This document shows positions 31,767 through 47,293 of a stretch of 64,000 nucleotides of DNA, piece after piece. A model generated the notes under the pieces. The model saw only the letters and a list, made by a program, of their open reading frames with translations. It had not been told where the DNA came from and did not search any database. The DNA lies in the NCBI GenBank assembly GCA_002720855.1, contig PBIN01000014.1, positions 62,001-126,000 on the forward strand, in the 5' to 3' direction. The position numbers and the translations under genes were made by a program. Source of the DNA: Rhodospirillaceae bacterium. Its GTDB lineage: Bacteria; Pseudomonadota; Alphaproteobacteria; MPNO01; UBA2964. Every line of letters begins with the position of its first letter. The first letter of the stretch is position 1.

Positions 31767-31837
31767 GCTGTCTCCTTAGTTCAATATCTGTCGTTGTTCT
31801 TGGTTCGACAAATATCGCCCTTACTCACCGTTAGAGA

Positions 31838-31866
31838 ACCCCGCCCAACCTTCTGGCGGGCGGGGT
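31838..31866 (-). terminator. Rho-independent-type hairpin behind the Bug/TctC receptor gene
   Basis: ACCCCGCCC (31838-31846) pairs perfectly with GGGCGGGGT (31858-31866) around an 11-base loop. It begins 24 bases beyond the stop codon of the receptor gene on the minus strand. The T-run after it is weak (TTCTCT). Confidence 0.65.
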
Positions 31867-31889
31867 GCTAACAGAACAATGATGGCAAG

Positions 31890-32921
31890 TTATTTAAAGC
31901 CGAGCGCTTCTTTGGCGCGTTTGACGGTCGCCGCGGAGGCCGATGCCGTTCTTGTGACGCGTTTCGCAATTTCCGCACCCCCCATCGGATGTACTTCAAT
32001 TTTGCGCCGCTTAGCTTCCGCCAGGAAGTCTGGGTCTTTAACCATTTTGTCATAGGCCGCGCGCAGGGCAGCCAATCGAGCTTTTGGCAGGCCGGGCGGA
32101 CCAAATATAGCCCTGCCGGTGATGGTTGGACCCATCATAAATTCCATAAATTCACGATCAGCCTTGGTTTTTGCAAGATCGAGAATGAGCGGGACATGTT
32201 TGGGCAAGTCAGGTGACTTATCGAACCCAAGTTCAACGACCGGAATGATGAATTTACTTTCGATCCACTGCGGCACATTGGATTTCCAGGATATCCATCC
32301 GGACGATAGGGCATTTGCTTCGCCCCGTTCGAGGGCGAGGCGTGTCCCTGCAGAACCTTTATATCCCTTAATGATCTTAAATTTTGTTCCCAAAGCGCTA
32401 TTCAAGAATGCAGGGAACATATAGGTCGGGCTGGCGAGGCCACTCGCCGCTGCGACGATCTCTTTCTTTTTGAGATCTTCTAGCGATTTAATGCCTGTAT
32501 CAGCGCGGACCATCATGACATGTTTTTGGGTCGCGAGACGACCGAGCCAACTCAGCTTTCTGACATCCAGCTTGAATCCTTTGCTACGAATGAGCTGGAA
32601 GATTGGCAACATCGGTGATGCCAGCCCGATAAACGTTCCGTTCTTTGGTGCAACGTTATAGGTGTAATTGGCCATTTTTAGACTGCCACCACCTGGCATA
32701 AACTGCGGCACGAATGCGGGTTTGCCCGGAATGTATTTTCCGAGGTGATTCACAACCAATCGCGAATACCGGTCATAACCTCCACCCGGACTGAATCCGA
32801 CGGCCATAATTCCAACCTGATCTTTGTAGAAATCTGCAACGGGATCCGCGTTGCCCGGTGTCGTGCCGGTAACGGCGACCAACGAAATAGCCGCTACCCC
32901 AAGAGTCAATTTTGAAGCCAT
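31890..32921 (-). CDS. Bug/TctC-family periplasmic substrate-binding protein
   Basis: A 343-residue secreted receptor. A Sec signal peptide is clear (MASKLTLGVAAISLVAVTG, cleavage near GNADP). The mature protein shows the TctC-like GFSPGGGYDRYSRLVV and QFMPGGGSLKMANYTYNV segments and the VAAASGLASPT loop that in this family contacts carboxylate ligands. Such proteins deliver carboxylic acids to TctAB-type secondary transporters. No tctA or tctB gene is in the window, so it is an orphan receptor, which is common for this family. The divergent gene encodes a lactonase-type amidohydrolase, suggesting an aromatic or dicarboxylic acid ligand (inference). Confidence 0.85.
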   Translation of the reverse strand: MASKLTLGVAAISLVAVTGTTPGNADPVADFYKDQVGIMAVGFSPGGGYDRYSRLVVNHLGKYIPGKPAFVPQFMPGGGSLKMANYTYNVAPKNGTFIGLASPMLPIFQLIRSKGFKLDVRKLSWLGRLATQKHVMMVRADTGIKSLEDLKKKEIVAAASGLASPTYMFPAFLNSALGTKFKIIKGYKGSAGTRLALERGEANALSSGWISWKSNVPQWIESKFIIPVVELGFDKSPDLPKHVPLILDLAKTKADREFMEFMMGPTITGRAIFGPPGLPKARLAALRAAYDKMVKDPDFLAEAKRRKIEVHPMGGAEIAKRVTRTASASAATVKRAKEALGFK

Positions 32922-33023
32922 CGTAAAGTCTCCCCAGACATTATGTTAATTCCAGTTTTTATATTGGCAAAACGGTACCATCGAGTTTGACAGGTCGACA
33001 AGCAAATCAATCACAATTTAAAT

Positions 33024-33899
33024 ATGCTTATGACTAAACCCTGCCAACCGCCGGACCCAAACTGGCACACGCCACGGACACCGCCACCGCCCGGAACGAC
33101 CGATTGTCATGTTCATATAATGGGGCCATTCGAAAAATTTGCACTCTCTGATAGGCGCGGTTATACGCCGGAAGAATGCCCTATCGAAAAGTTTGAAAGT
33201 ATGATGAGCGTTCTGGGGATTGACCGCGCCGTCATCGTCCAGGGCAGCGCACATGGCAATGACAATCGCGTAACCGTCGATGCTGTAAGGAAACTTGGTG
33301 CAAATGGTCGGGGAATCGTTTTGGTGCCGCCCGATGTATCAGATTCCGAGCTACAGGCGTTCAGGGATTCGGGGATTTGTGGATTGCGTTTGTCGACAAT
33401 TTCCAAGGCCGGATACGGCACAGAACATCTTACCGAGATGGCGTCCCGCGCCAAAGCGCTGGATTGGATGATGCTGCTTCATTTCGGGAATATTGACGAG
33501 GTCCCGGCCTTGTTGCCACTTCTTAAAAAACTACCTGTTAATTTTGTGATCGACCATCAGGGGCGGCCCCGCGGATCACAGAACATCGAAACGGAAGGGT
33601 TTCAATCACTTTTAAATCTGGCCAGGAATACAGAAAATTGTTGGGTGAAGCTGAGTAGCTGGTATCGACAATCTGTCACAGGAGCTCCTTACGACGATAT
33701 GTATCCGTTTATTGAGGCGTTGATCGAGGCACGCCCAGACCGCTTGATCTGGGGCAGCAATTGGCCTCATCCGAACTATAAAGGCGCTATGCCCAATGAC
33801 GCCGATCTTCTGCAACAGATGCTCGACTGGGCAGATTCTGATGCGGTTGCCAAAAAAATCCTCGTCGACAATCCCGAAAATTTATTTGGGTTTTCCTGA
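33024..33899 (+). CDS. Amidohydrolase family protein, 2-pyrone-4,6-dicarboxylate lactonase-like
   Basis: A 291-residue TIM-barrel metal-dependent hydrolase of the amidohydrolase-2 group. The first metal motif is TTDCHVHIMGP (about 25-35). RAVIVQGSAHGNDN, the VIDHQGRP strand end and the C-terminal LIWGSNWPHPN follow in the order seen in LigI, the lactonase of the protocatechuate 4,5-cleavage pathway. A close relative with another lactone substrate is equally possible. ATG 33024 or ATG 33030 may be the start. Divergent from the orphan carboxylate receptor across 102 bp; convergent with the FAD oxidase behind it. Confidence 0.8.
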   Translation: MLMTKPCQPPDPNWHTPRTPPPPGTTDCHVHIMGPFEKFALSDRRGYTPEECPIEKFESMMSVLGIDRAVIVQGSAHGNDNRVTVDAVRKLGANGRGIVLVPPDVSDSELQAFRDSGICGLRLSTISKAGYGTEHLTEMASRAKALDWMMLLHFGNIDEVPALLPLLKKLPVNFVIDHQGRPRGSQNIETEGFQSLLNLARNTENCWVKLSSWYRQSVTGAPYDDMYPFIEALIEARPDRLIWGSNWPHPNYKGAMPNDADLLQQMLDWADSDAVAKKILVDNPENLFGFS

Positions 33900-33905
33900 C
33901 AGTCC

Positions 33906-35078
33906 CTAGTTCATTCCAGCGAGTGCTTTGACATATTCGCCTATTGCCATCGACGACGTCAGACCAGGTGATTCAATGCCAAATAAATTAATCAGCCCGT
34001 CGACGCCATGGTCTTTTTTGCCATGGATAACGAAATCATTCGCTGTCGCCTGTTCGAGGCTGAGTTTTGGTCTAACGCCAGTATAGCCCGGTTGCAGCTC
34101 ACCATCTTTGAGGTCGGGTAAAAATCTTCTGACGGCTTTATAGAAAAACTCAGCCCTATCCGGATTCAAGGTGTAGTCGACGCTGTCCACGATCTCGACA
34201 TCGGGCCCAAATCGATTTAGTCCTGAGAGGTCAGGGCATACATGTACTGAAACTTTATGGTCTTTGGGAAGCGGATAGACCATTCGATTAAAAGGCCGCC
34301 GTCCATGGATCACGAAATAACAGCCGCGCGTGAGATATTGTTCGGGGATTGTCGAGTCTGGAACGCCGATTATCACTGCGGCGACACGTTGGGCGCTGTG
34401 TCCCGCCGAATTGACACACAGCGCGCACCTGATGGTGGTTTCATGATCACCGCCAACAACAAGTTCGATGCCGTCCTCTATGACACGTCCCGACTTTACT
34501 GGAGCATTTACAGCCAGCACCGCGCCGTGCTGCTCGGCGTCGCCGAGATAGGCTGTCATCAACTCATGCGCCTCGATCAAACCAGAAAGTGGCGAGTAGA
34601 GAGCGCCGGCAAACGCCAAATTTGGTTCTTTCTCACGAATTTCAGCGTGGTCCGCGATATATATTTCCTGCAAGCCGTTTTTGTTGGCTTTCTCCTTTAG
34701 AGCATGCAGCTCTGGGATATCCGCGTCGTCGACTGCCACCACGAATTTCCCCGTCATTTCATGGCTTACACCGTGGTCGGGGCAGTATTGATACAGAAGG
34801 TCCCGTCCGCGCAGTGCAAGCTGGCTCTTGAGACTCCCCGGCGTATAGTTGATCCCCGCGTGGATACAGCCCGAATTACGGGTGGAGGTGTGTGTGCCGT
34901 ACGTGGTTTCAGCCTCAAGAATGATCACCTCACGGCCCGCCATCGCCAATGCCCGTGCGATTGCCAGCCCGACGACACCGGCTCCGATAACTATGCAGTC
35001 GACTTTTTCGGTCAAAGTGGCTTTTCCTCTTGAAGTACCCAGGAGAGTTTCTTCCATGTCCGTTATTTGGACAACCAT
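33906..35078 (-). CDS. FAD-dependent oxidoreductase, L-2-hydroxyglutarate oxidase (LhgO)-like
   Basis: A protein of up to 390 residues in the DAO superfamily. The FAD motif VIGAGVVGLAIARALA is followed by the LhgO-like TSTRNSGCIHAGINY and LCVNSAGHSAQRVA. Near the end, GLINLFGIESPGLTSSMAIGEYV is also typical. It would oxidise L-2-hydroxyglutarate or a similar 2-hydroxy acid, passing electrons to quinone or O2. The start is uncertain: the first ATG (35078) adds about 22 residues before the FAD fold, while an in-frame TTG preceded by AAGAGGAAAA would begin just before it. Divergent from the MFS gene at 35129. Confidence 0.8.
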   Translation of the reverse strand: MVVQITDMEETLLGTSRGKATLTEKVDCIVIGAGVVGLAIARALAMAGREVIILEAETTYGTHTSTRNSGCIHAGINYTPGSLKSQLALRGRDLLYQYCPDHGVSHEMTGKFVVAVDDADIPELHALKEKANKNGLQEIYIADHAEIREKEPNLAFAGALYSPLSGLIEAHELMTAYLGDAEQHGAVLAVNAPVKSGRVIEDGIELVVGGDHETTIRCALCVNSAGHSAQRVAAVIIGVPDSTIPEQYLTRGCYFVIHGRRPFNRMVYPLPKDHKVSVHVCPDLSGLNRFGPDVEIVDSVDYTLNPDRAEFFYKAVRRFLPDLKDGELQPGYTGVRPKLSLEQATANDFVIHGKKDHGVDGLINLFGIESPGLTSSMAIGEYVKALAGMN

Positions 35079-35128
35079 TGCCTTAGGTGAGACACTGAGA
35101 GGAACTCAACGCGAATGTCGGTGCTTCA

Positions 35129-36316
35129 ATGAATAGAGAAAAGAAGAATGTTCTCGTCCTAGCGACCTGTCAGGTTTTGTTTGGGACGGGACGGTCGCTG
35201 ATAATCGCCACGGCGCCGCTAATTGCTTATGGTATTGCCACACATAAGGGCCTGGCGACGTTGCCCACGTCATTGGTTATCGTCGGCACTGCGGTGATGA
35301 CAATTCCAGCATCGCTTTTAATGCGCCGTGTCGGGCGTCGCATAGGTTTTATGGTGGGTTCGCTGATTGGCGTGGTTAGTGGCTTGCTAAGTGCCTATGC
35401 AGTTCTCCAGTCAAATTTTTGGCTTTTCGCTTTTGGCGCCTTTCTGTTCGGCCTGTTCGCTGGATTTGCGCAACTTTACCGGTTTGCGGCTGCCGATGTC
35501 GCCAGTGAAGATTTTAAGAGCAAAGCGATATCTCTGGTTTTGGCTGGTGGCGTTGTATCAGGGTTTTTGGGGCCAGAGTCTGCGAAGATCGGACAGCATC
35601 TTGTCACCGCAACACCGTTTGTCGGTGCCTATCTGATCCTCACCGGTGCGACAGTTCTGGCGATCTTTGTATTGTTGTTCCTCGACATTCCCAACCTGAC
35701 GCCGGAAGAGCGGGCGGGTCCACGTCGTCCTATGTTGCAGATTATGAAGCAGCCAGTTTTTATCGTTGCGGCAACGGCGGCGATGATTTCGCAGGGTGTA
35801 ATGAATTTTCTTATGACAGCCACTCCAATAGCCATGGCGCATGCTCACCATCAGTTTGCGGATACAGCGCTTGTCATCGAATGGCATATTTTTGGGATGT
35901 TTGCGCCCGGCTTCGTTACCGGGCATCTCATCAATCGATTCGGTGAAATAAAAATGATCATTTCGGGCCTGGCGCTGCAGTTTTTCTGTGTCGCTGTAGC
36001 TCTGGCGGGGGTTGAAGTGGCCCATTTTTGGCTTTCAATGCTGCTTCTAGGTGTTGGTTGGAACTTTGCTTTTACGGCCGCTACGTCGCTCATGACCAAC
36101 GCCTATACGATCTCCGAGCGCGCAAAGACCCAGGGCGCTATGAACTTCCTGATTTACGGATTTGTCTCGGTTCTATCGCTGTCTTCAGGCGCTCTCGTAC
36201 ATTTCTTTGGCTGGGATGTCGTCAATCTGGGTGCCGTACCGTTTTTGATCGTCGCAGTCGGGGCGACGCTTTGGTATGCGATAACGCAAAATCGTGGGCC
36301 TGCCATCTCGACGTAA
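35129..36316 (+). CDS. MFS transporter
   Basis: A 395-residue, 12-helix major facilitator. The cytoplasmic loop between helices 2 and 3 carries MRRVGRRIGF, a motif-A-like sequence, and the C-terminal half has a related loop (NRFGEIKMI). The N-terminus is short and basic (MNREKKN). I cannot assign a substrate; it resembles small exporters rather than the aromatic-acid:H+ symporters. It lies 50 bp from the divergent FAD oxidase and 52 bp before the hydrolase at 36369, with which it may be co-transcribed. Confidence 0.75.
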   Translation: MNREKKNVLVLATCQVLFGTGRSLIIATAPLIAYGIATHKGLATLPTSLVIVGTAVMTIPASLLMRRVGRRIGFMVGSLIGVVSGLLSAYAVLQSNFWLFAFGAFLFGLFAGFAQLYRFAAADVASEDFKSKAISLVLAGGVVSGFLGPESAKIGQHLVTATPFVGAYLILTGATVLAIFVLLFLDIPNLTPEERAGPRRPMLQIMKQPVFIVAATAAMISQGVMNFLMTATPIAMAHAHHQFADTALVIEWHIFGMFAPGFVTGHLINRFGEIKMIISGLALQFFCVAVALAGVEVAHFWLSMLLLGVGWNFAFTAATSLMTNAYTISERAKTQGAMNFLIYGFVSVLSLSSGALVHFFGWDVVNLGAVPFLIVAVGATLWYAITQNRGPAIST

Positions 36317-36368
36317 AGCGGCTTCCCCTATAGAAATACAATCGCATTCGTAAAGAACCGGAGGCGTT

Positions 36369-37478
36369 ATGATCGACTTTTTCTTCCCAACTGAGGGCAT
36401 GGGCTCGCAGACCCTCAGAACAGTAGCCGAAGCGGCATATGGCGGCGGTGATGTATTCGAAATTTCCCGTGTTCTGAAAGATATCGAACCGGGCGACAAG
36501 GATGCATTTGAGCAAGCCTGGATCGACAAGGCCGAAGATACAGAAGCCCGTGCCAAAAAAGCTGAGGCTGCTGGTCATACGCGCACAGCGATGAAGTATT
36601 ATTACGCAGCCAATCAATATTGGCGCATGTCGGATGTGCTCCTGACAATTGAGCGAAACGATGACAAACGCCAGAGGTTTATAAAATCACAAGAATGTTT
36701 TCAGGCGGGGGCCAAGTACAACGATCCCAAGATCGAAGTGATCGAGGTTCCCTGCGGTGATGAGGTCTATGAGGGCTATTTCTGTCACCCGCGCAATCCG
36801 AAGACCGAAAAGTGGCCCGCTGTTTTATTCCTGGGCGGGGCAGATGCTTTTGCCGAAGAAATCTACTTTGGCGGCAGTGAGCTTTGCGAACGAGGCTACG
36901 CAATGCTGCTGGTCGACACCCCCGGACGCGGCTCATCAATGTACGTCAAGAATATTCCGACGCGAGCGGATTACGAGGTGCCGGGTAAAGCCTGCTTTGA
37001 CTATTTATTCTCACGACCGGAAATCGATCCCGATCGGGTGGCGCTGATGGGTATCTCGATGGCGGGTTATTATGCGCCACGTGTTGCGGCATTTGAGGAT
37101 CGCATTAAAGCGCTCATCGCCTGGTGCGGTTGTTATTCAATTCTCGATGATCTTTATCTGCACTATGAGCATTTGCGTCCGACGTGCCAGCGTCTACTCG
37201 GCGGTGTTTCCGATGAAGTTGCGCAGGAACAGCTCAAGGAATTCACGATGGCCGGTATTGCCCAAAACATCAAAGTGCCGACCATCATGACGCACGGAAT
37301 CAATGACAAGCTAATGGATGTTGAGGGCGCGAAAAAGCTCTTCGACGAAATTGGCGCTGAAGATAAAACACTCCATGTTTTTGACGATCCCAAAGTCGGC
37401 GGGACTGTTCATTGCGCCCATGATTGCTGGGTTCATCAGATGCCGATGCTCATGGATTGGCTTGAGGATCACGTCTAA
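36369..37478 (+). CDS. Alpha/beta hydrolase with N-terminal helical cap (FrsA / dihydroxypseudooxynicotine-hydrolase-like)
   Basis: A 369-residue protein with an N-terminal helical domain of about 115 residues (rich in charged helices, DTEARAKKAEAAGHTRTAMKYYYAA) followed by an alpha/beta hydrolase domain. The nucleophile is Ser230 in MGISMAGYYA, the acid Asp313 in THGINDKLMD, and the base His348 in GGTVHCAHD. This architecture is that of 2,6-dihydroxypseudooxynicotine hydrolase and its relatives, which cleave C-C bonds in N-heterocycle or aromatic breakdown products. ATG 36369 follows GGAGG closely. Its 3' end faces the DUF3095 gene. Confidence 0.8.
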   Translation: MIDFFFPTEGMGSQTLRTVAEAAYGGGDVFEISRVLKDIEPGDKDAFEQAWIDKAEDTEARAKKAEAAGHTRTAMKYYYAANQYWRMSDVLLTIERNDDKRQRFIKSQECFQAGAKYNDPKIEVIEVPCGDEVYEGYFCHPRNPKTEKWPAVLFLGGADAFAEEIYFGGSELCERGYAMLLVDTPGRGSSMYVKNIPTRADYEVPGKACFDYLFSRPEIDPDRVALMGISMAGYYAPRVAAFEDRIKALIAWCGCYSILDDLYLHYEHLRPTCQRLLGGVSDEVAQEQLKEFTMAGIAQNIKVPTIMTHGINDKLMDVEGAKKLFDEIGAEDKTLHVFDDPKVGGTVHCAHDCWVHQMPMLMDWLEDHV

Positions 37479-37488
37479 GCAATCTGGT

Positions 37489-38646
37489 TCAATCTTCAGC
37501 CGCTGCCATTGCCTTTTTGAGTTCGACGGCGGCGAGCGCATATCCACCAGCTCCGCCGTCAACGAAATGCATGTGGTCGTTCGTAAAGGGCGAGGGGACG
37601 ATGCAGGTCATTACCGCGCTATCCTGCGTATTTAGGCCGAAAAAAGCGATGCCCTCTTGCTGCGCTATAGTCAATTTTTTTTCGATTGCGGAAATTGTTT
37701 CGGTTTTGCAATCAACTGTTAATTTCAGGCCGTCATCGAATTTTCGAAAATCGGTATTCTGTGTTGTCTCTAGCCGGTAACGTTTTGGATCGAACCGTTT
37801 GAGGCTACGGCCCAACAGTTCCAACACGCAAGGGATAGCCTGTTCACCGATTATGGCAAGCGCACGCGAGAATTTGGATTTGCTGCCGCGTGATGCACTT
37901 ACTTCAATTCCCAATCCCTGTGGCGGCCATGAATAACTTGGCCCGTCAGGTGCGACCGGGTGCCCGCCCCGTTCGGTTTCCTGATTAAGGATCGCCAGGA
38001 TTTCTTCGACCAGACCGGTAAATGCGGACTCGTTTCCATTGCCCCTGGGTAAAACAAGCAACGATAATATTTGGCCATTCTGTGATTCCATGGGCCGCCA
38101 ACGACAGGACAATCCACTGAGGTCAGGCCGCGTCCCCGCTGGTGCCGGATCAACCGAATAGTCGCCCGATTTCATCGCGGCGTCTGCCCATGCAATGCCG
38201 CCACCCGAGAACATCGCGTAAGCAACGCCTGGAGATACCTGAAATTTTGCAACACTGACTTTTTTGCCAGCGGTGATCACATCACGTACTGGGACGAGCG
38301 CGGCGCGAAGTTGTAAATCGATCTCTTCTTCAGCCCAACGTTGGCAGCCTGCGAGCGCAGCGGAGACTTCAATTCGCCGCCCTTCCGGTACCGCAAAGGC
38401 TGCGCCATCGCCCCCGAAAACAAAGGGAAATGACGCATCGCGATCAAGATTCATAATTGCCGAAATGACACTGGCACCAACGGTGTTTACGGCTTTGTAT
38501 CTGCCCGCCTGTAACGCACCTGTAGAATCCACAACGTCTGCAACGCCAATAAGCCAATCTTCCGGTAGGGATCGATAGCGGTCTTTCTGAACAACGTCCT
38601 GAAAGTCCGAAAAAGCCGGAATATCGTCGTAGAACTGGTCACCCAT
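37489..38646 (-). CDS. DUF3095 family protein, possible nucleotide-cyclase-like fold
   Basis: A 385-residue soluble protein matching DUF3095 by its opening (FYDDIPAFSDFQDV, YRSLPEDW) and layout. VADVVDST (Asp37) and VFGGDGAAF (Asp80) resemble the two metal-binding strands of class III adenylate cyclases and GGDEF proteins. The C-terminal third ends with a GGAGGYALAAVELKKA helix. A signalling or nucleotide-converting role is therefore conceivable, but the residues needed for base recognition are not recognisable, and the function is unknown in the family as far as I know. It sits 33 bp downstream of a UbiD gene on the same strand, an unusual partner. Confidence 0.65.
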   Translation of the reverse strand: MGDQFYDDIPAFSDFQDVVQKDRYRSLPEDWLIGVADVVDSTGALQAGRYKAVNTVGASVISAIMNLDRDASFPFVFGGDGAAFAVPEGRRIEVSAALAGCQRWAEEEIDLQLRAALVPVRDVITAGKKVSVAKFQVSPGVAYAMFSGGGIAWADAAMKSGDYSVDPAPAGTRPDLSGLSCRWRPMESQNGQILSLLVLPRGNGNESAFTGLVEEILAILNQETERGGHPVAPDGPSYSWPPQGLGIEVSASRGSKSKFSRALAIIGEQAIPCVLELLGRSLKRFDPKRYRLETTQNTDFRKFDDGLKLTVDCKTETISAIEKKLTIAQQEGIAFFGLNTQDSAVMTCIVPSPFTNDHMHFVDGGAGGYALAAVELKKAMAAAED

Positions 38647-38679
38647 CTGTTTCGGTGTCGCCTGTGGCTTGTTTATCTC

Positions 38680-40239
38680 TTAGCCTTTTTCACTTAGGGA
38701 ATATTCGCCTTCTTTCAACCGGCGGAGCTTCCCTTCGCGACGTATTTCATCCAGCGCTATAACAACCTCACGACCATCTCCAGTGCCAATCGCGGCCATG
38801 AGTTGTTCATAAGTTTTTGGCCCGTCTTCCAGTGCGGCGCGTATATTGTCGAACTTTTTACCGTCCAGCGTGGGCGGCGAGGGGACGGAAAACTCGATGG
38901 AGTTTCTCCTGTCATTCGCAATCGTCAAATCGAACCCGGCCTTGGAACCAACTTTATCGCCATATAGCGAGGGATCGAGAGGTAGGGTACGCATTCCACT
39001 CTGAACAACTAAATCACGATCTGGCTGAAAACGTGTCGCCAGCGCCCATTCCATCTGATCGTCGTCAAAAATATCGATGTCATCATTGACGACGAACACG
39101 TTTTTTACATTGGCCAGGCAACCAAATGCAGCGGCGATAGCATTTTGAGCTTCACCCGGCACGCGGGGTCGCATCGAAATTCTGAGATTAAACATTCCAG
39201 CACCGGCACCCGTCGCATTAACAGCAACTGGTTCTCGTATTGCGGTTTGCAGGGCCCGCCAGACGACAGCCTCCGATTTGAGGCTATTGAGGACAGCAGT
39301 GTCTGTACGGCCGATATGCGGTCCGCTAATTGTTGCGGTTTGGAACAAGGCATCAGCGCGCATCGTAATCGCTGTGAGATGGAAGACCGGGTTCTTCTTC
39401 ATAATCCCGTAATAGCCGGCAAATTCTCCGAAGGGTCCTTCGTCTTCCACATAGCCGTGTTCATCGAGATAACCTTCGATGACGATCTCTGCATCGGCCG
39501 GCACCAAAATGTCATTGGTAATGCTCTTAACAAGTTTCAATGGCGCACCGCGCAATGATGCGAGCAGTTCTGTTTCATCGACTGGAATACGCATGGTTGC
39601 GGCGACATAGTCGATGGGATGCGCGCCGAGGATAAAACTTACGGGCAGCTGTTCACCCCGCGCGGAGGCTGCTTCATAGATTGCGCGCAGATCGCTGGGT
39701 GCGTTGAGATCGACGCCTGCTTCCTGTCTTCCGCGCAGCATCATGCGGCGGCAACCAAGATTGGTTAGGCCGGTCTCAGGATTGATCGTAAAATCGAGCG
39801 TCGCGGAGAGATAGGGGCCGCCGTCACGACCATGCTGAAACGGTACAGGCAGTTTCGTGAAATCGGCTTCATCGCCAGTCCAGACAATCTCTTGAACAGG
39901 TGCATCACCTTTGGAAACTGTTTCAACGGATTGTTTAACGGCAAGCCGCTTCAGGAGTTCAGACAGGAGCTCAATTTCCGCCACACCAAATGCCAAAGCG
40001 AGGCGCGAACGGCTGGCAGCGACGTTGCCAATAATTTCGGCTCCTTCGGGTCCCGCGTCACGAAAGAGAACAGCTTTTGGATTGCCATCCATGTAACCGG
40101 TGAGGTCGGCAAGTTCCGTTTTCTCGTCAACGATCTCAAGCTCATCGGCGACGATAAGTTCTTCCACAAAATTACGCAGACGGAATTGATCCAAATTTGC
40201 CTTCGATAGTTTAGCTGTGCCTTCGGGCATTAATCCCAT
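38680..40239 (-). CDS. UbiD family decarboxylase (second copy)
   Basis: A 519-residue prFMN-dependent decarboxylase, only distantly similar to the copy at 10317. The catalytic region reads VEDEGPFGEFAGYYG, and ISMRPRVPGEAQNAIAAAFG and the NVFVVNDDIDIFDDDQMEWALATRFQPDRD segment are family-typical. The N-terminal part begins with LRNFVEELIVADELEIVDEKTELADLTGYMDG. A C-terminal extension of about 65 residues looks like a small winged-helix-like domain (GPKTYEQLMAAIGTGDGREVV). Phthaloyl-CoA, vanillate or another aromatic acid decarboxylation is possible. Divergent from the class II aldolase gene; co-oriented with DUF3095. Confidence 0.8.
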   Translation of the reverse strand: MGLMPEGTAKLSKANLDQFRLRNFVEELIVADELEIVDEKTELADLTGYMDGNPKAVLFRDAGPEGAEIIGNVAASRSRLALAFGVAEIELLSELLKRLAVKQSVETVSKGDAPVQEIVWTGDEADFTKLPVPFQHGRDGGPYLSATLDFTINPETGLTNLGCRRMMLRGRQEAGVDLNAPSDLRAIYEAASARGEQLPVSFILGAHPIDYVAATMRIPVDETELLASLRGAPLKLVKSITNDILVPADAEIVIEGYLDEHGYVEDEGPFGEFAGYYGIMKKNPVFHLTAITMRADALFQTATISGPHIGRTDTAVLNSLKSEAVVWRALQTAIREPVAVNATGAGAGMFNLRISMRPRVPGEAQNAIAAAFGCLANVKNVFVVNDDIDIFDDDQMEWALATRFQPDRDLVVQSGMRTLPLDPSLYGDKVGSKAGFDLTIANDRRNSIEFSVPSPPTLDGKKFDNIRAALEDGPKTYEQLMAAIGTGDGREVVIALDEIRREGKLRRLKEGEYSLSEKG

Positions 40240-40429
40240 TTCTTTTTTTCAGTTAACGGAGCCTCAGCTTATCAATTTTGATAAATTTTGGAATTCTTTG
40301 TTCCTTGGTGCGGATTGGGTCACAATCGGCCCTATGCTAAGTTCATCAAATAGAAATCAAATTTCAGGTATCGAAGGCTTCGATATCGGAACATTAGAAG
40401 CGCCACTATGCGGATAAGGAACGTCTCGA

Positions 40430-41149
40430 GTGTCTGAACTGGAAGAATTGTCCCGTGATCTCGTGATTGCTAACCGTATTTTGGCGCATCAGGGGGTGGT
40501 CGACGGTTACGGCCATGTCAGCGTGAGACACCCCGACAACCCGGAGCGCTTTCTATTATCGAGATCGCGCAGTCCTGAACTGGTAGAGCGCGACGATATT
40601 CGGGAATTCGATCTTGCCGGCGATATGATCGATCCAGACGGATCCTCCGGCTATCTGGAACGCTTTATTCACGCTGCGGTATTTGAGTTGCATCCGGAAG
40701 TGCATGGTTGCGTGCACAGCCATGCCGAAGCATTGTTGCCCTTTGGTATAACGCCTGTTCCCCTTAAACCGGTCTTTCACAATGCGTCTCGTATCGGTAA
40801 GGAAGTGCCGGTTTGGGATATACGCGATAGGTTTGGCGACACCGATATGCTCGTAGTTAATATGGACCATGGCCGGGATTTGGCCGAAACACTCGGTGAC
40901 AATCGCTTGGTTCTTATGCGTGGTCATGGCCTGACCGTCGCGACGGAATCGCTTTATACGGCGGTAACAACAGCGATCTACGCCGTGGTCAATGCCCGCG
41001 TACAATCCACCGCCATGCAGATGGGTGAGGTCACTTTCCTTTCAGAAGGCGAGATCGACGCCGCTATTGGCAAAGCCAAATCTGCCACACTGGGTCACAA
41101 GCGGATCTGGGAGTATCTCAGCCGCCGCGCAAATTGCGAGGGTTTGTAA
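40430..41149 (+). CDS. Class II aldolase/adducin family protein, possible aromatic-acid decarboxylase
   Basis: A 239-residue zinc protein of the class II aldolase/adducin fold. Metal ligands are His96 and His98 (CVHSHAE) and His166 (RGHGLTV); Glu77 may be the catalytic acid. DGYGHVSVRHPDNPERFLLSRSRSPELV is the typical N-terminal core. In aromatic degradation the fold provides decarboxylases for dihydroxyphthalate and for ring-cleavage products (HCOMODA type). Its neighbours, a ring hydroxylase behind it and a UbiD protein across the divergent region, favour such a role over sugar-phosphate aldolase. The start is GTG 40430, behind AAGGA. Confidence 0.8.
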   Translation: MSELEELSRDLVIANRILAHQGVVDGYGHVSVRHPDNPERFLLSRSRSPELVERDDIREFDLAGDMIDPDGSSGYLERFIHAAVFELHPEVHGCVHSHAEALLPFGITPVPLKPVFHNASRIGKEVPVWDIRDRFGDTDMLVVNMDHGRDLAETLGDNRLVLMRGHGLTVATESLYTAVTTAIYAVVNARVQSTAMQMGEVTFLSEGEIDAAIGKAKSATLGHKRIWEYLSRRANCEGL

Positions 41150-41150
41150 A

Positions 41151-42350
41151 ATTTCACGGTCACCTCATGTTCTAATTGCCGGGGCCGGTATTGGTGGCCT
41201 AACAGCCGCTTTGGCAATGCTAAAGGCAGGCGTTGACGTCGACGTCTATGAACAAGCGCCTGAGCTTGGGGAGATCGGCGCAGGTTTCCAAATGAGTGCA
41301 AATGGTACCCGCGTTCTATCGTATCTTGGTCTTGGCGACGCTATGAAAAAGATCGCGTGGGAGCCGAATGGCAAAGAAATCCGTATGTGGAATTCCGGTC
41401 AGACATGGAAACTTTTTGATCTAGGGGCGGAATCAGTCGAGAGATATGGGTTTCCCTATTTGATGTTTCATCGTGCAGACCTTCACGGTTTGCTGGTTGA
41501 CGCGGTCAGGGCAGAAAAACCAGATGCCATTCATCTCAACGCCTCATGCACAGGATGCAGTCAGGATGATGAAATGGCCATCCTTCACATTGACGGCCAG
41601 GAGGACGCAACGGGGGATGCTCTGATCGGAGCCGATGGCGCGCACTCAAATATTCGTCAGACATTGTTTGGCGAGGAGCAAAAAGAATTCTCCGGCCTAA
41701 TCGCCTGGCGCGGTGTCATTGATGCGAATGATTTACCTGACGGGTTGATAAGACCTGTGGGAACAAACTGGGTAGGACCGGGAGGACACGTTGTTCACTA
41801 CTTTGTCCGTGACGGCGCACTTCTCAACTTCATCGGTATACAGGAAACCGACACGTGGTTCGCGGAATCATGGACGGCGCGCGGGACGACAGCGGAATGT
41901 CTGGCTGATTTCGAGGGCTGGCATGACACCATTCAAATCATGATCCAGAACATAGGCGTTCCTTACAAATGGGCGCTGATGAAACGTGAACCCATGGAGC
42001 GTTGGACGGAAGGCCGTATCACACTGCTCGGTGACGCCTGCCATGCAATGGTGCCGATGTTGGCGCAGGGAGCGGTAATGGCAATTGAAGACGGCATGGT
42101 TCTGGCTCGTTGTGTGGAGAAATTTGGTGACGATATTGAGGCGGGTCTCAAGAGATATGAGGAATTACGGCTAGAGCGAACGGCGCGAACGATTCGAGGA
42201 TCCAATGACAACGCGGATCGGTTTCACAATTCACAGCTGGGCGACCCGCAAGGTGCGCAAAACTTTGTCGACACTGAGTGGCAGCCTGACAAAGTGCGCG
42301 AACGATATGACTGGTTGTTTACCTATGATGCAACTTCAGTAGAAATCTGA
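41151..42350 (+). CDS. FAD-dependent aromatic hydroxylase (salicylate / 3-hydroxybenzoate hydroxylase-like), apparent ATT start
   Basis: A 399-residue flavoprotein monooxygenase of the PHBH family. GAGIGG (11-16 from the ATT) binds FAD, the DG motif is GADGAHSNIR, and the GD motif is LLGDACHAMVP. It would hydroxylate a phenolic acid with NAD(P)H and O2. No ATG, GTG or TTG lies near the expected N-terminus: the nearest in-frame ones (41067, 41028, 40992) are inside the aldolase gene and encode unrelated residues. ATT 41151 lies one base after the aldolase stop and eight bases after GAGGG, so it is the best start, as a rare initiation codon. Coupled to the aldolase gene. Confidence 0.75.
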   Translation: MSRSPHVLIAGAGIGGLTAALAMLKAGVDVDVYEQAPELGEIGAGFQMSANGTRVLSYLGLGDAMKKIAWEPNGKEIRMWNSGQTWKLFDLGAESVERYGFPYLMFHRADLHGLLVDAVRAEKPDAIHLNASCTGCSQDDEMAILHIDGQEDATGDALIGADGAHSNIRQTLFGEEQKEFSGLIAWRGVIDANDLPDGLIRPVGTNWVGPGGHVVHYFVRDGALLNFIGIQETDTWFAESWTARGTTAECLADFEGWHDTIQIMIQNIGVPYKWALMKREPMERWTEGRITLLGDACHAMVPMLAQGAVMAIEDGMVLARCVEKFGDDIEAGLKRYEELRLERTARTIRGSNDNADRFHNSQLGDPQGAQNFVDTEWQPDKVRERYDWLFTYDATSVEI

Positions 42351-42611
42351 GCCGGGTTGGTTAACCATAAATTTTGGGCTCAAACCTAAATGACGATTTT
42401 GGCAGGCAATCACTCAGCTGTGATCGATTTCTTGCGGTAACTGTAACGCTCTGAAATAGGATAACTCTTTCGGTTAATAGTCAAAATTTGGCCTAATTTT
42501 TCATAAAATTTTAGACGTCTTTTCTTGAAATTAACCAAAACGATGCCCCATCTTCACTAACAACAAGACAAATAATAACCATTCAATACGGTTAACAAAT
42601 GGGTTGGTGTT
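42351..42611. other. AT-rich intergenic region with a CtrA-like half-site
   Basis: 261 bp without a gene, clearly richer in A and T than its surroundings. It holds TTAACCAT (42361-42368), the alphaproteobacterial CtrA half-site, several further GGTTAA/TTAACC words near 42474, 42532 and 42590, and an inverted repeat ATCAC-N6-GTGAT (42409-42424). It separates the catabolic region from the core-like genes and must contain the promoter of the SleB hydrolase gene. Confidence 0.5.
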
Positions 42612-43154
42612 ATGGGACGGATTCTATCCTTCTCTTTTGTCGTATGGGCCATTCTATCGGTATCGATTTCGGCGGGCACAACAAAAGAAGAAATTAGCAG
42701 GAAATCGCCAGAGCTCTATTGCATGGCAATGAATATCTATTTTGAAGCGCGTGGCGAACCTCTGTTGGGAAAGATTGCGGTTGGTCATGTTGTGCTAAAT
42801 CGTGTTGCTGATAAACGATTTCCCGGACATGTATGCAAAGTCATTCGCCAGGGTGGCGAAAAACGTCGTCATCGTTGTCAGTTTTCCTGGTGGTGTGATG
42901 GAAAGAGTGATCGCCCACGAGATGAAACGGCGTGGTATGATGCAGTTTTTGTGGCGCATCTCATTCGGTTAGGAGTCACGATTGACCCGACCAAAGGTGC
43001 ACTCTGGTATCACGCGGTTACAGTACGTCCTAATTGGGCAAGTCAAATGCACCGGGAAGCGAAGATAGGCCGACATATTTTCTATTCGAAGCCGCGGCGA
43101 CATTTTTCGCAGAGATCGCTCGGGTCAAAATCGCGTAGCAAATCTTCTTTATAG
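42612..43154 (+). CDS. SleB-type cell wall hydrolase (Hydrolase_2 family)
   Basis: A 180-residue secreted peptidoglycan hydrolase. A signal peptide covers about the first 21 residues (LSFSFVVWAILSVSISAG). The catalytic domain begins with LYCMAMNIYFEARGEP, where the Glu of EARGE is the presumed general acid, followed by GKIAVGHVVLNRV, the CQFSWWCDG segment and GALWYHA. Such enzymes cleave glycan strands during division or growth. The C-terminus is very basic (KSRSKSSL). CtrA-like half-sites upstream suggest cell-cycle control. Its 3' end overlaps the convergent FemAB-like gene by 6 bp. Confidence 0.85.
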   Translation: MGRILSFSFVVWAILSVSISAGTTKEEISRKSPELYCMAMNIYFEARGEPLLGKIAVGHVVLNRVADKRFPGHVCKVIRQGGEKRRHRCQFSWWCDGKSDRPRDETAWYDAVFVAHLIRLGVTIDPTKGALWYHAVTVRPNWASQMHREAKIGRHIFYSKPRRHFSQRSLGSKSRSKSSL

Positions 43155-44087
43155 ATATGTGCCGGACAGGGTGGTCACCTCGCCTCCCATACCAAGTTTA
43201 AATCGTGCGACACCTGATGCGGAGTCAGTGTTGAGTCCACCCAGATCGAGCCAGCGGACGTTCTGTTTCTTAAGTTCCTCAATACCCTTCCACAGAAGTA
43301 CATTGTGGGCTTTCCGATTGCGGCCCTGGGTCGTCGTCCAACTCGTATAGTAGGTGGCACTCCTGCCATGGCGGATAAGTAAAATACTTGCGATAGGATC
43401 ACGTCTCGCAACGGCTGATATCGAAATTAGATCGCCTCGTTTGCTGTGATGTTTCATTGCATCAATAAACTCGCCGGGCGGCCCGATAAATTTTTTCTTC
43501 TGTCAGAAGACTGAATATCCTTTCAGGTGACTCTCAATTCCTTTTTTGTCGTCTCGAATGTCGAATTGAAGATTTTCTTTTTCCCCGGCCCGGAGCGCGT
43601 TGCGCCAGCTCCCGGATAAATTTTTCCGTAAAGAGTCATCAGACAACGTAAGGTCCAACCAGGAAGTGCTCAGTCCCGTCACCATCTGACGTTTGCCTAT
43701 CGAGCGCATAAGCCTGCCACTTTCAACGTTATTAGGAACTTCTGGTGTCCAAAATAAGAAATCCCGATTTCGCATGGAAAAGGTACTGGAGATAGCCTTC
43801 ATCGCGGCGATCCGTTGATCTTCAGTGTTGGCTTCTCCGATCCACAGCGGCCCGCGAACCAGCCGGATGACCTTCGCAAGGCCCAAGAAAGGTTTCTCAA
43901 TGATTGGAATTAAGCCGATTGGATTTTTTTCCGAATGAATGGCGGCTCTTCGCACAGCCGTTCGGTAATACGAGCGCGCGGCTTCACCAAAAACCCACGA
44001 TTGCTCAAGCGCCGATCGTTCCGAGTTGATGAAGAGCGCATCCCATTCGGGCCTTTCAAAATCGTCCCAGATAATCTTCAACGGCAA
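43149..44087 (-). pseudogene. FemAB/GNAT-like acyltransferase, interrupted by in-frame TGA
   Basis: The minus-strand frame from ATG 44087 to the stop at 43149 would encode about 312 residues of a FemAB-like (peptidoglycan bridge or lipid-modifying) acyltransferase but for a TGA at 43503-43505 (codon 195). Before it are LEQSWVFGEAARSYY, GLIPIIEKPFLGLAKVIRLVRGP and LSGSWRNALRAGEKENL. After it come KKKFIGPPGEF, the AVARRDPIASILLI strand and WLDLGGLNTDSASGVARFKLGMGGEV. Both halves are in the same frame and otherwise intact. The TGA follows GYSVF, where relatives usually have a Met, Arg or Trp, so a nonsense mutation (for example of CGA or TGG) is the likely cause. It was probably cytoplasmic. Confidence 0.7.
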
Positions 44088-44137
44088 TTTCCTATTAACG
44101 ATTTCGTTTCAGTTCATATCTCTATAGTTTAGCGAAG

Positions 44138-44341
44138 ATGACTTTGTTTTTCCCAAAATCGCAGACAGTGGCCGGCGTTTCCATTCCCGGGCGCAGGTAT
44201 ACAGCATGGGCTGCACTTTATTTTGTGCTCTTTTTTTGCATTCCGATAATGGTAGTCGCTCTCGCGTTGGACACATTGTTCTATTTCATTTTTCAGGAAT
44301 TTTTCGATAGCTGCTACGCGGTCATGTGTCTGTCTAAATAA
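44138..44341 (+). CDS. Small single-pass membrane protein
   Basis: A 67-residue protein with one long hydrophobic stretch (about 24-53, YTAWAALYFVLFFCIPIMVV and beyond) and a short polar N-terminus. It overlaps the EamA transporter gene by one base (TAATG), so it is translated in coupling with it. It may be an accessory subunit of the carrier. No recognisable family; three cysteines are present, two of them near the C-terminus. Confidence 0.55.
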   Translation: MTLFFPKSQTVAGVSIPGRRYTAWAALYFVLFFCIPIMVVALALDTLFYFIFQEFFDSCYAVMCLSK

Positions 44342-45237
44342 TGTCCGTCCAAAAATATTTATCGAGGCAATCGCCGACGGTGCGGGGTGGTCTCTGGATG
44401 ATGGCTGCGGCCCTTAGCTTCACCATTATGACGACACTAATTCGTGAGGTAGCCAAGGAGATTCACCCCTTTGAGATAGGGTTTTTTCGTTGCGTCACCA
44501 ATTTTCTGCTTATGTTACCTTTTGTTCTTAGGACCGGCCCATCAATCTGGGATACCGGAAATCACAAAATGTATGTTTTTCGGGCTATCGTCGGAACCTG
44601 CTTTCTACTGACCTACTTTTCGGGTGCGGCGTTGATTCCAATTTCTGATTCGCAGGCCCTATATTTTACCTCGCCGCTTTTCGGCACGCTCCTGGTTATT
44701 ATTTTTCTTGGAGAAAGAATTCGTAGCCGCCGGATACTGGCTTTGATCGCTGGTTTTTGCGGGGCGCTTATCATTCTACGACCGGGCGTTAACGAGGTAA
44801 GTATAGGAGCCATACTGGTTCTTTTGGGTGCACTTGCCAATGCGACCAGCAGTTCGATGCTTAAATATTTCACGCGAACTGACCATCCAGACAAGGTTGT
44901 GTTTTATCACATGCTTTATTCAACCCCGTTGATGCTCATACCCGCATTACTGTTCTGGACAACACCCACGCTAGAACAGCTCGGTTTGATGGCTGGCGTG
45001 GGTCTGTTTGCGACTCTCAACCAAAGATTTTTGACCCGGGCATTTGCCACTGATGATGCCTCGGTAGTCTTTACCTTTGACTTTGCGCGTTTACCATTTG
45101 CGGCCCTGATTGGCTGGCTTGTTTTCTCAGAAATACCTGATATCTGGGTTTGGGTAGGTGGCGCAGTTATATTTTTATCATCTGTCTATATCGTGCGGCG
45201 TGAGGCGGCGCTCAAATCTCAGAAGAACCAAAAATGA
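44341..45237 (+). CDS. EamA (DMT) family transporter
   Basis: A 298-residue inner-membrane carrier with ten predicted helices in two EamA repeats, the first starting at SPTVRGGLWMMAAALSF and the second near NEVSIGAILVLLGALANA. The REVAKEIHPFEIGFFRC and LISDSQALYF-like segments of helices 2 and 4 are typical. Such carriers export amino acids, metabolites or nucleobases. It overlaps the gene upstream by one base and the lipoprotein hydrolase downstream by 4 bp, so the three form a tight operon. Confidence 0.85.
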   Translation: MSVQKYLSRQSPTVRGGLWMMAAALSFTIMTTLIREVAKEIHPFEIGFFRCVTNFLLMLPFVLRTGPSIWDTGNHKMYVFRAIVGTCFLLTYFSGAALIPISDSQALYFTSPLFGTLLVIIFLGERIRSRRILALIAGFCGALIILRPGVNEVSIGAILVLLGALANATSSSMLKYFTRTDHPDKVVFYHMLYSTPLMLIPALLFWTTPTLEQLGLMAGVGLFATLNQRFLTRAFATDDASVVFTFDFARLPFAALIGWLVFSEIPDIWVWVGGAVIFLSSVYIVRREAALKSQKNQK

Positions 45238-46112
45238 AATTACGCTTCCCGTTATCCATACTCATATCTGTTTTTGCGATTGTTCTTTCGGGATGCGCAT
45301 CTCCACCCGGAGATAGCGGCACGATAACGGTAAACGATGGGCGGGATGCACTCGCAGCTCCTATGACCGTTTATTATTATCGTCCGGACACGTTTAAGCC
45401 TGATGGTCCGGTGCTAATTGCGCTTCATGGGCTCAGCCGAAATGCCTATGGATATAGAAACTACTTTGCTAAATCCGCGCACAAATATGGCGTTCTTGTG
45501 TTGGCACCCGAATTTACGCGGAAAAACTTCCGAGGGTCGCGTCGATTTAACCTTGGCAACTTGAAAGACAAATCCGGAGCGACACAGCCAAAGTCTCTTT
45601 GGGCCTTTCCGGTAATTGACCGTGTTTTTGAAAAGTCGCGCGCTATGCTCGGTTTTGAGCGCCAAAAATATGCATTGTTCGGACACTCGGCCGGATCGCA
45701 GTTTGTTCATCGTATGATTTTATTTTCGCCATCCGAGAAGATGTCGGCCGCGGTTGCGGCAAATGCTGGTTGGTACACAGTTCCCGATAAGCGAATAGCA
45801 TTTCCGTATGGGCTAAAAGGAACAGATAGCGCCACCAAAAAACTTCGCGACGCATTTGGACAAAAGTTGACGATCCTTCTTGGTACAGACGACAATGACG
45901 AAAGCCACAAAACACTTCGGAAAACGGAGGGGGCGTTACAACAGGGGTCTCACCGTTTGGCGCGAGGCCGCAATTTTTATCAACGCTCAATGGAAATTGC
46001 TGCCCAGAAGAAATTATCGTTTCGCTGGCAAATTCGGGAGGTTCCGGGCGTTGCGCATAGCGGCCGCGGAATGGCTGAGCCCGCGGCAAATATTCTGTTC
46101 GGAACTCCGTAA
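45234..46112 (+). CDS. Lipoprotein alpha/beta hydrolase (PHB depolymerase/esterase-like)
   Basis: A 292-residue lipoprotein: the signal peptide ends in a lipobox (VLSGC, Cys21), so it is anchored in the cell envelope. The hydrolase domain shows HGLSRNAYGYRNYF (oxyanion region), the nucleophile Ser152 in FGHSAGSQ, the acid probably in LLGTDDNDE, and the base His in VPGVAHSGRGM. The extended VLVLAPEFTRKNFRGSR region resembles PHB-depolymerase and feruloyl-esterase-like proteins. An exported esterase acting on a polymer or a carrier's substrate is plausible. Start overlaps the transporter by 4 bp. Confidence 0.8.
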   Translation: MKLRFPLSILISVFAIVLSGCASPPGDSGTITVNDGRDALAAPMTVYYYRPDTFKPDGPVLIALHGLSRNAYGYRNYFAKSAHKYGVLVLAPEFTRKNFRGSRRFNLGNLKDKSGATQPKSLWAFPVIDRVFEKSRAMLGFERQKYALFGHSAGSQFVHRMILFSPSEKMSAAVAANAGWYTVPDKRIAFPYGLKGTDSATKKLRDAFGQKLTILLGTDDNDESHKTLRKTEGALQQGSHRLARGRNFYQRSMEIAAQKKLSFRWQIREVPGVAHSGRGMAEPAANILFGTP

Positions 46113-46114
46113 GA

Positions 46115-46166
46115 CACTGCTGACCTCCGGTGCTGGTTGTCCGGGCAGGTCTCTAGCGATACAGTG
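46115..46166 (+). other. Structured 5' leader or hairpin before the dehydrogenase gene
   Basis: CACTG (46115-46119) can pair with CAGTG (46162-46166), and within it GACCTCCGG (46122-46130) with CCGG-gc-AGGTC (46141-46151), leaving a 10-base loop. It lies in the gap between the esterase stop and the dehydrogenase start. No T-run follows, so it is not a simple terminator. Confidence 0.4.
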
Positions 46167-46216
46167 CCGCCACTTAAAATTTGTGGCAATCGTCCCAACT
46201 GGAGTTTTCCAAGAAC

Positions 46217-47293
46217 ATGCCCACGCTCGTCCTTCAGAACGATCATATTATACGCGCATTGAGCGTCATTCTTGACCCTGATTGCGACTCCGAAAGAGTC
46301 GCCGGTTTTGCCGATTACTATTCGGTCGACATGCCCGAGTTTCCACAATGGTGTGAAGCAATAAGGGAGAAATATCCCGCGGTAGCGCCGTCCAAAGTCG
46401 TGTTGGCGGATAGTCAGGAGGATTTTCAAGCGGCATTGCCTGAGGCAGATGCTGTGGTCGTTGAAGATTTCTTGGTGGGAGAGAATGAATTGGCAGCCGC
46501 ACCTAATATTAAGTTCGTACAGAACTTTCGAACCGATATGCGCAATATTGATGAAGCAGCATGTGCCGCGCACAATATTCCTGCTTTACCTTTCCACCGT
46601 ACCGTGAACGTTGCTGTCGGTGAACACGCATTTTCACTGATGATGGCGTTGGCAAAGAAAACGGTGGAAACCAATAAACTTCTGACGATCGAGGCGCTTC
46701 AGGCCGAGGGCTGGCCGGCGCGAGAGTATGATCGGCAGCACACTGCGAATTCAAATTGGGCACGGATTTCCGGCGTTAAGAATATGTTTGGATCAACACT
46801 GGGAATTGTGGGGCTTGGGTCCGTCGGGCGCTATGTCGCCAACTGGGCGAACGCATTCGATATGGAGGTCATTTATACCCAGCGCAATCAGCTCAATGCT
46901 GAGCTGGAAAGCCAGTTCAACGCTCGATATGTGTCACTCAACGAACTGTTCCAACAGTCAGATTTTGTCAGCATCCACGTGCCACTCAATGATTCCACCA
47001 AGGGATTGATTGGTGCTGAACAACTTGAACAGGCAAAACCGGGAATTACTATCGTCAATATCGCGCGGGCGGATATTGTTCAGAAAGATCCACTTCTGGC
47101 TGGTCTAGACTCCGGCAGGATCGGTGGCGTCGGTATGGATGTTCATTACAAGGAACCAGGTGATAACGATGATCCGTTTCTTCCCTATAAGAACGTTGTA
47201 ATGAGTCCGCATATCGCGATCGGTTCCCGGGTCAATGGTGCCGTCGATATGGAAGCGATGATTGCCAATATTGCGAACGCGATGAGAGACTGA
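46217..47293 (+). CDS. D-2-hydroxyacid dehydrogenase family protein
   Basis: A 358-residue NAD(P)-dependent dehydrogenase of the D-isomer 2-hydroxyacid group. The Rossmann motif is GLGSVGRYVANWANAF. The catalytic Arg lies in NIARADIVQKD and the catalytic His in VVMSPHIAIGSR, with Glu in the GGVGMDVHYKEPG segment. It would interconvert a 2-keto acid and the D-hydroxy acid, or act on phosphoglycerate-like substrates. I choose ATG 46217 because the MPTLVLQND start is family-like and the 12 residues before it are not. Its stop overlaps the aminopeptidase start by one base. Confidence 0.8.
   Translation: MPTLVLQNDHIIRALSVILDPDCDSERVAGFADYYSVDMPEFPQWCEAIREKYPAVAPSKVVLADSQEDFQAALPEADAVVVEDFLVGENELAAAPNIKFVQNFRTDMRNIDEAACAAHNIPALPFHRTVNVAVGEHAFSLMMALAKKTVETNKLLTIEALQAEGWPAREYDRQHTANSNWARISGVKNMFGSTLGIVGLGSVGRYVANWANAFDMEVIYTQRNQLNAELESQFNARYVSLNELFQQSDFVSIHVPLNDSTKGLIGAEQLEQAKPGITIVNIARADIVQKDPLLAGLDSGRIGGVGMDVHYKEPGDNDDPFLPYKNVVMSPHIAIGSRVNGAVDMEAMIANIANAMRD

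Follow-up and report, generated by a model that had tools for sequence, protein, structure and literature searches.

The 64,000-nucleotide stretch of DNA from a Rhodospirillaceae bacterium analysed here (the window; its genome, G000 in our numbering, comprises 15 contigs and 3.58 Mb) carries at positions 36369–42350 five genes, encoding an alpha/beta hydrolase, a DUF3095 protein, a UbiD-family decarboxylase, a class II aldolase-fold protein and an FAD-dependent ring hydroxylase, which an earlier note on this DNA had joined into a single aromatic-acid module. We conclude with moderate confidence that the five are not one module but two gene sets that were spliced together and partly deleted. 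On balance, we read the locus as a composite of two interleaved units for the peripheral catabolism of carboxylic acids with an aromatic or heteroaromatic ring. This reading rests on gene content, synteny, absence from the site in some genomes, conserved motifs and a model of the UbiD tail, and we infer the reactions, the (hetero)aromatic acid as substrate, co-transcription and the role of the DUF3095 protein. More notable than the locus itself are the expansion of UbiD across the bacterial order concerned and a UbiD subfamily with a winged-helix-like tail.

Two gene sets at one site

All five reading frames are present and belong to the families that had been named (Pfam, Table 1), family assignments that bear out the catabolic character of the set, and the UbiD is indeed a second one, the other in the window lying at 10248–11930. 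The divergent layout that had been described around 40240–40429 was confirmed as well, with a gap of 190 bp. The hydrolase and DUF3095 genes are convergent and 10 bp apart, and the UbiD gene lies upstream of the DUF3095 gene across a gap of 33 bp.

Relatives were compared in a genus set of nine genomes (G000–G008) and an order set of 27 genomes from 11 genera; G numbers denote genomes and L numbers fetched stretches, of which L026 and L067 are from the same contig of G001, L060 is from G003, L025 and L064 are from G004, L019 and L065 from G010 and L187 from G361. DUF3095 and the orthologues of the UbiD and the hydroxylase co-occur in the same six of nine genus genomes (G000, G001, G002, G003, G004 and G007); searches of G005, G006 and G008 gave none of the three. 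G005, which is 71% complete, gave no hydrolase match and was left out of the count for or against the locus; G006 is 69% complete, yet its locus is contiguous. In G006 and G008 the locus is a core run on one strand, with genes for an amidohydrolase, an MFS transporter, the hydrolase, the aldolase-fold protein, an alpha/beta-hydrolase-like protein, a 2-hydroxyacid dehydrogenase and an M17 peptidase. The hydrolase and aldolase genes are about 40 bp apart in G008, and in G006 they are separated by the gene for VOC1, a VOC-fold protein discussed below. Where all three additional genes occur, the UbiD–DUF3095 pair is inverted within the core run and the hydroxylase gene follows the aldolase gene, that of G004 being on a separate contig and cut at its edge. 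The MFS gene adjoins the hydrolase gene in L023–L026, L066, L067, L098 and L099. The hydrolase itself is found in 23 of the 27 order genomes (best match in each at least 56% identical), whereas the order genomes with a hydroxylase match above 60% identity are the six of the genus, G009 and G010.

The two-unit reading is favoured by several of these patterns: G006 and G008 have the core run but none of the three additional genes, these three occur in the same six genus genomes, members of the UbiD subfamily elsewhere keep other company (see below), and VOC1, VOC2 and the hydroxylase are encoded side by side in G010, a genome of another genus, with a VOC1 remnant in the window. The catabolic reading is favoured because the UbiD motif, the hydrolase triad and the aldolase histidines are kept. 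Unit 1, with hydrolase, amidohydrolase, MFS transporter and aldolase-fold protein, would take up and process one set of compounds, with C–C cleavage by the hydrolase and removal of a carboxyl group by the aldolase-fold protein as the probable reactions. Unit 2 would comprise the UbiD and the hydroxylase, joined in sister genomes by TctC and two VOC-fold proteins; the UbiD is predicted to decarboxylate an aromatic acid with prenylated FMN (prFMN) and the hydroxylase to hydroxylate the ring, which the VOC proteins of the relatives may then open. In G000 the units appear interleaved, and loss of TctC and both VOC genes from the site would have left the divergent layout. For the DUF3095 protein, the likeliest role is that of a cyclase-like passenger with a regulatory function, which would be co-transcribed with the UbiD.

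A single genuine pathway, in which the five enzymes act in sequence on one phthalate- or pyridine-type acid, would fit the high conservation of the five-gene block wherever sister genomes carry it (about 79–96% protein identity) and the presence of pyridine-pathway enzymes among the solved relatives (2jbw, 2z7b and 6-hydroxynicotinate 3-monooxygenase). We regard it as unlikely, given the G006 and G008 loci, the absence of a hydroxylase above 60% identity from 16 of the 23 hydrolase-bearing order genomes and the frequent position of the UbiD subfamily beside molybdenum (Mo) hydroxylases. The locus cautions that genes lying close together in a single genome may have been spliced from two sets.

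A probable deletion between the divergent genes

In five sister loci, which represent four genomes (L023, L024, L066 and L026/L067), about 1.8 kb separates the aldolase gene from UbiD or TctC. This segment encodes two VOC-fold proteins, VOC1 and VOC2, VOC1 being split in L023; L025 retains part of VOC1 at a contig edge. TctC precedes UbiD in L023, L024, L025 and L026/L067 and does so neither in the window nor in L066. A 36-bp stretch of the window matches the 3' end of VOC1 from L066, L067 and L026 (E 1.5e-4 in a search of five sequences). Across the window and the other fetched stretches of G000 (570 kb with overlaps, at most one sixth of the genome), VOC1 and VOC2 had no match and the relatives' TctC had only matches of 24–38%. 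From these comparisons, the window has probably lost both VOC genes and TctC from the site. Family matches of VOC1 and VOC2 are unspecific and VOC1 had no match among PDB sequences at E 0.01.

A perfect palindrome, TATCGAAGGCTTCGATA, at 40369–40385 was considered as an operator and rejected because a search of the sister loci did not turn it up and it coincides with part of the VOC1 remnant. On both strands of the window the palindrome (TATCGAANNNTTCGATA) has 14 loose matches, against a shuffle mean of 3.5.

Relatives and active sites of the unit enzymes

The hydrolase shares its N-terminal region and hydrolase domain with the Ayg1-type protein 8qd7 (E 1.6e-19) and 2,6-dihydroxypseudooxynicotine hydrolase (2jbw, E 4.3e-18), although similarity is low (69–73 bits). 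A putative triad of S230, D313 and H348 is in register with the 2jbw alignment, and the protein is a candidate C–C hydrolase. In G007 the hydrolase gene (C2:166941–167916) lies in two frames (pieces 1–142 and 183–369), either through a frameshift or a sequencing error.

The aldolase-fold protein has ligand-type histidines at 96, 98 and 166 and aligns over 231 residues with Mlr6791 (2z7b; E 3.5e-45, 157 bits), with which it has the HxH motif and the later histidine in common. We take Mlr6791 to be a pyridine-dicarboxylate decarboxylase. The window protein reaches none of the NCBIfam cut-offs; against the model of the 3,4-dihydroxyphthalate decarboxylase PhtC (NF053537) it scores 70.4 bits, below the cut-off of 200. 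It is probably a decarboxylase.

The closest solved relative of the hydroxylase is tropone 2-monooxygenase (8rqh; E 3.2e-70, 240 bits), and similarity to this enzyme, to vanillate 1-hydroxylase (8x38) and to 6-hydroxynicotinate 3-monooxygenase extends across most of its length at 189–240 bits. Equivalog cut-offs are not reached, the score against the 3-hydroxybenzoate 6-monooxygenase model (NF006021) being 288.9 bits with a cut-off of 459. The reading frame called for this gene exists, but its start at 40992 is only mechanical, as alignments with known proteins set in near 41160. Opposite the ATG of the G001 gene (L026/L067) the window has ATT (position 41151), and so do L023 and L066; in L024 a TGA follows the ATT in frame. 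This ATT is a possible non-canonical coupled start in the window, L023 and L066, a reading that the TGA led us to drop for L024. The window gene may start at the ATT or at an in-frame codon further upstream.

The earlier proposal of a phthalate- or pyridine-type substrate stands in so far as the nearest characterised relatives include such enzymes (2jbw, 2z7b, 6-hydroxynicotinate 3-monooxygenase and the PhtC model). A more specific variant, a pyridine route resembling vitamin B6 degradation in which an aldolase-fold decarboxylase, an FAD oxygenase and a hydrolase act in turn, draws on Mlr6791 as the best PDB match of the aldolase-fold protein; it seems improbable, as the hydroxylase reaches only about 82 bits against 2-methyl-3-hydroxypyridine-5-carboxylate oxygenase, compared with 240 for tropone 2-monooxygenase.

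The UbiD, its subfamily and its C-terminal tail

The UbiD scores 191.8 bits against PF01977 (cut-off 23.3) and 286.4 bits against TIGR00148 (cut-off 244.85), and in an alignment of 36 paralogues it keeps the catalytic motif, with R165 in NLGCRRM and EGPFGE at 267–272. It is predicted to be a prFMN decarboxylase. Its closest solved sequences are 6h6x and 6h6v, which we take to be the furandicarboxylate decarboxylase HmfF and with which it shares the N, middle and C domains as well as N-x-G-x-x-R and EGPFGE. It differs from HmfF in carrying a C-terminal winged-helix-like tail and, in an alignment read by eye, in having T and S at the positions of H296 and R304, presumably substrate residues of HmfF.

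Relatives with 87–89% identity are from metagenome-assembled genomes (MAGs) of uncultured Alphaproteobacteria, one of them the UBA2964 isolate FRAM18_bin082, a name by which the window genome would fall near the GTDB order UBA2966. This order is described as marine (PMC8879329), and another paper, in which UbiD does not occur, names it among lineages for Arctic Ocean aromatic degradation genes (PMC9789639).

Matches to the subfamily (E ≤ 1e-80) occur in 10 of the 11 genera of the order. Neighbours outside the genus were searched by tblastn in 17 loci, namely the 12 best-scoring of 31 order matches, the two weakest (39%) being left out as paralogues, and five loci from other groups: Ramlibacter, a betaproteobacterial MAG, Variovorax, and plasmids of Neorhizobium and Paraburkholderia, the last two belonging to five plasmid records and being 56–57% identical. 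The neighbourhood of this UbiD clade does not support the proposed module: a Mo-hydroxylase large subunit is encoded within 5 kb of UbiD in 11 of the 17 loci (directly downstream in five order loci, 2.5 kb upstream in one G010 locus, and in all five loci outside the order), and DUF3095 is in none. The loci without a Mo-hydroxylase are L122, L123, L124, L128, L130 and L133, the L123 stretch breaking off shortly behind UbiD. Four loci have a hydroxylase relative (54–58% identity) 3–9 kb from UbiD, that of Paraburkholderia spanning 182 of 396 residues. All five non-order loci have an enoyl-CoA hydratase and three of them UbiX.

The tail was modelled by AlphaFold2 as three helices followed by two strands, with a mean predicted local distance difference test score (pLDDT) of 74, and it models as a winged helix. 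Fold searches gave a best Foldseek E of 3.2e-3 and a best VIA Z of 7.1, a modest value that may reflect a common arrangement; the PDB matches listed are mostly HxlR (YodB), ArsR (BigR), MarR and Z-alpha proteins, and also methyltransferases, SelB and others. The tail is a subfamily trait, since in 36 of 39 subfamily matches the alignment extends at least to query residue 515, and by eye the paralogues L050, L053 and L054 have similar tails. It had no Pfam match over cut-off, and of two open-access papers that contain both UbiD and winged helix, neither deals with a winged-helix UbiD by its title. Methyltransferases, which are among the matches, use a winged-helix domain for dimerisation, so the tail could serve either dimerisation or DNA binding. 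Were the tail a working DNA-binding domain, the UbiD could be a trigger enzyme that controls the promoter between the divergent genes, and DUF3095 would provide a second, cyclase-like output. We consider this very improbable, although a scan of 15 neighbouring genes (29626–48690) showed no regulator, which would fit; if true, the enzyme would sense its aromatic substrate or the state of its own cofactor, within an order that may rely chiefly on UbiD to attack resistant organic matter in the sea.

Several observations weigh against the two-unit reading. The VOC remnant is short, and without the VOC genes the pathway may be incomplete here. The core-gene tree is unresolved, so loss of the UbiD cassette from G006 and G008 is possible instead of gain elsewhere, and the direction is one that we infer. 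The hydroxylase is in two pieces in L023 and its start is unclear in L024, for which reason it may be eroding in relatives. In the window no Mo-hydroxylase adjoins the UbiD, the nearest one found being at 25071–27392, and genome-wide UbiD and Mo-hydroxylase genes lie within 5 kb of each other six times against 3.2 expected, which does not exceed chance, with 185 of 2000 random placements as high.

Expansion of UbiD in the order

G000 has 36 UbiD matches, all over cut-off. Their median pairwise identity is 27% (maximum 72%), so most are old paralogues. By eye, 32 keep the (E/D)(G/A)xxx(E/D) motif; the four that do not (L055, L056, L057 and L058) could be unusual decarboxylases or non-catalytic subunits. 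In a set of 61 genomes, 25 of the 27 from the order have 22–37 UbiDs each and the other 34 genomes of the class 0–5; the two low order genomes, G005 with nine and G026 with one, are both small and incomplete. A sample of 385 genomes gave 30–39 first-look candidates in five order members and at most 16 among the others listed, which do not include the 195 genomes without a match; scoring in this sample was capped at seven UbiDs per genome, and larger figures are first-look candidates. Matches to the Mo-hydroxylase large subunit number 36 in G000 and fall in 35 proteins, one of which holds two. Its Flavoprotein-family matches are two, of 212 and 411 amino acids, by size presumably UbiX and CoaBC, respectively; in some relatives, G003 and G008 among them, the smaller, UbiX-sized kind is matched twice.

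Genomes with numerous old paralogues of a single enzyme family are also known from marine SAR202 bacteria, in another phylum and with other enzyme families; that work proposes them for resistant organic matter and has no occurrence of UbiD (PMC6946804). A search of titles and abstract beginnings in the open-access literature found no paper on a UbiD expansion. An order with 22–37 UbiDs in most of its sampled genomes and apparently one prenyltransferase is a source of candidate (hetero)aromatic decarboxylases, and it suggests a testable hypothesis on the breakdown of resistant aromatic carbon by marine microbes.

The DUF3095 protein

The cyclase-like fold suggested earlier has motif evidence on its side, and profile tests lend it no significant support. 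The two-Asp motif D37-x3-S41-T42 ... F77-x-G79-D80-G81 forms a pattern found in all 41 rows aligned (32 distinct), with D37, S41, F77, G79, D80 and G81 kept in 41 and T42 in 39. By eye it resembles the D-x3-S-T and F-x-GDG of a cyclase encoded nearby in Rhizobium and Phyllobacterium, but the pattern matches only 2 of 36 cyclase rows (three rows being repeats). Alignment of DUF3095 with cyclases by hhalign was not significant (probability 2.3%, E 0.02; nine controls 0.1–0.7%), and hidden Markov model scores between the two were near noise. The structural model, built from five close sequences, has a pLDDT of 38 and is too poor for a fold search; PDB sequences gave matches at chance level only.

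DUF3095 occurs in 25 of the 385 sampled genomes of the class (two as fragments or split) and in 249 plasmid records, mostly of Rhizobium and Sinorhizobium; no relatives were found in viral contigs, and no mention of DUF3095 in the open-access literature. Its neighbours, compared by a rough script in 24 loci (the gene itself was called in 22, not in L059 and L197), vary widely and include in L060 and L064 a protein that we take to be LOV-like from its motif.

Alternatively, DUF3095 could be an accessory protein of UbiD, for cofactor delivery or maturation, and not a signalling protein. UbiD is followed by DUF3095 in six genus genomes and, independently, in G361 of an unrelated family (L187, 6220–9061), where DUF3095 starts 16 bp after the UbiD stop and the UbiD is 73.5% identical to the best-scoring G000 paralogue (probably housekeeping); moreover, one paper expects diverse UbiD helpers (PMC10865409). 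We nevertheless judge this role improbable, since among the 24 DUF3095 loci UbiD occurs only in L187 and, 15 kb away, in L188, none of the UbiD-subfamily loci outside the genus has DUF3095, and G048 has DUF3095 and no UbiD match. Both the winged-helix-like tail and the adjacent DUF3095 gene offer concrete starting points for studying how UbiD is regulated or how its cofactor is handled, a question that published work has yet to answer.

G003 and G004 have a second, distant DUF3095 elsewhere in the genome; that of G004 (L064, 8774–9921) is split into two overlapping reading frames and adjoins the LOV-like gene as in L060. In G010 (L019/L065, 5361–5525) a 57-residue DUF3095 fragment, possibly a remnant, lies beside relatives of the window genes at 42612 and 44341.

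Other features of the window

Table 1 Positions of the locus and its surroundings in the window
Feature	Position	Strand	Evidence
Amidohydrolase-2 enzyme, core-run neighbour	33024–33899	+	E 2.8e-49; 5' of MFS gene in G006, G008
MFS transporter, conserved core run	35129–36316	+	MFS_1 E 1.6e-33
FrsA-like alpha/beta hydrolase, 369 aa	36369–37478	+	Pfam FrsA-like/S15/S33, E 1.1e-9 to 1.9e-10
DUF3095 protein, 385 aa	37489–38646	-	PF11294 E 8.6e-128
UbiD-family (predicted prFMN-type) decarboxylase, 519 aa	38680–40239	-	Pfam UbiD E 1.1e-56, with N and C domains
UbiD C-terminal winged-helix-like extension, about residues 464–519	38683–38850	-	AlphaFold2 model
Divergent intergenic region, probable deletion scar	40240–40429	.	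190 bp vs about 1.8 kb in sister loci
VOC1 3'-end match, 36 bp, contains palindrome TATCGAAGGCTTCGATA	40365–40400	+	80.6% identity
Class II aldolase-fold protein, 239 aa, GTG start	40430–41149	+	Aldolase_II E 1.5e-21
FAD-dependent ring hydroxylase, salicylate-hydroxylase-like	41151–42350 (mechanical reading frame 40992–42350)	+	FAD_binding_3 E 3.5e-22
Alpha/beta-hydrolase-like protein, 2-hydroxyacid dehydrogenase, M17 peptidase	45234–48690	+	Pfam, first gene weak (E 0.014)

A scan for promoters and terminators gave sites no more numerous than in shuffles. At 18301–20481 the window encodes a Mo-hydroxylase-like protein of 726 amino acids in which the MoCoBD domains match partly, and which is possibly divergent or degraded.

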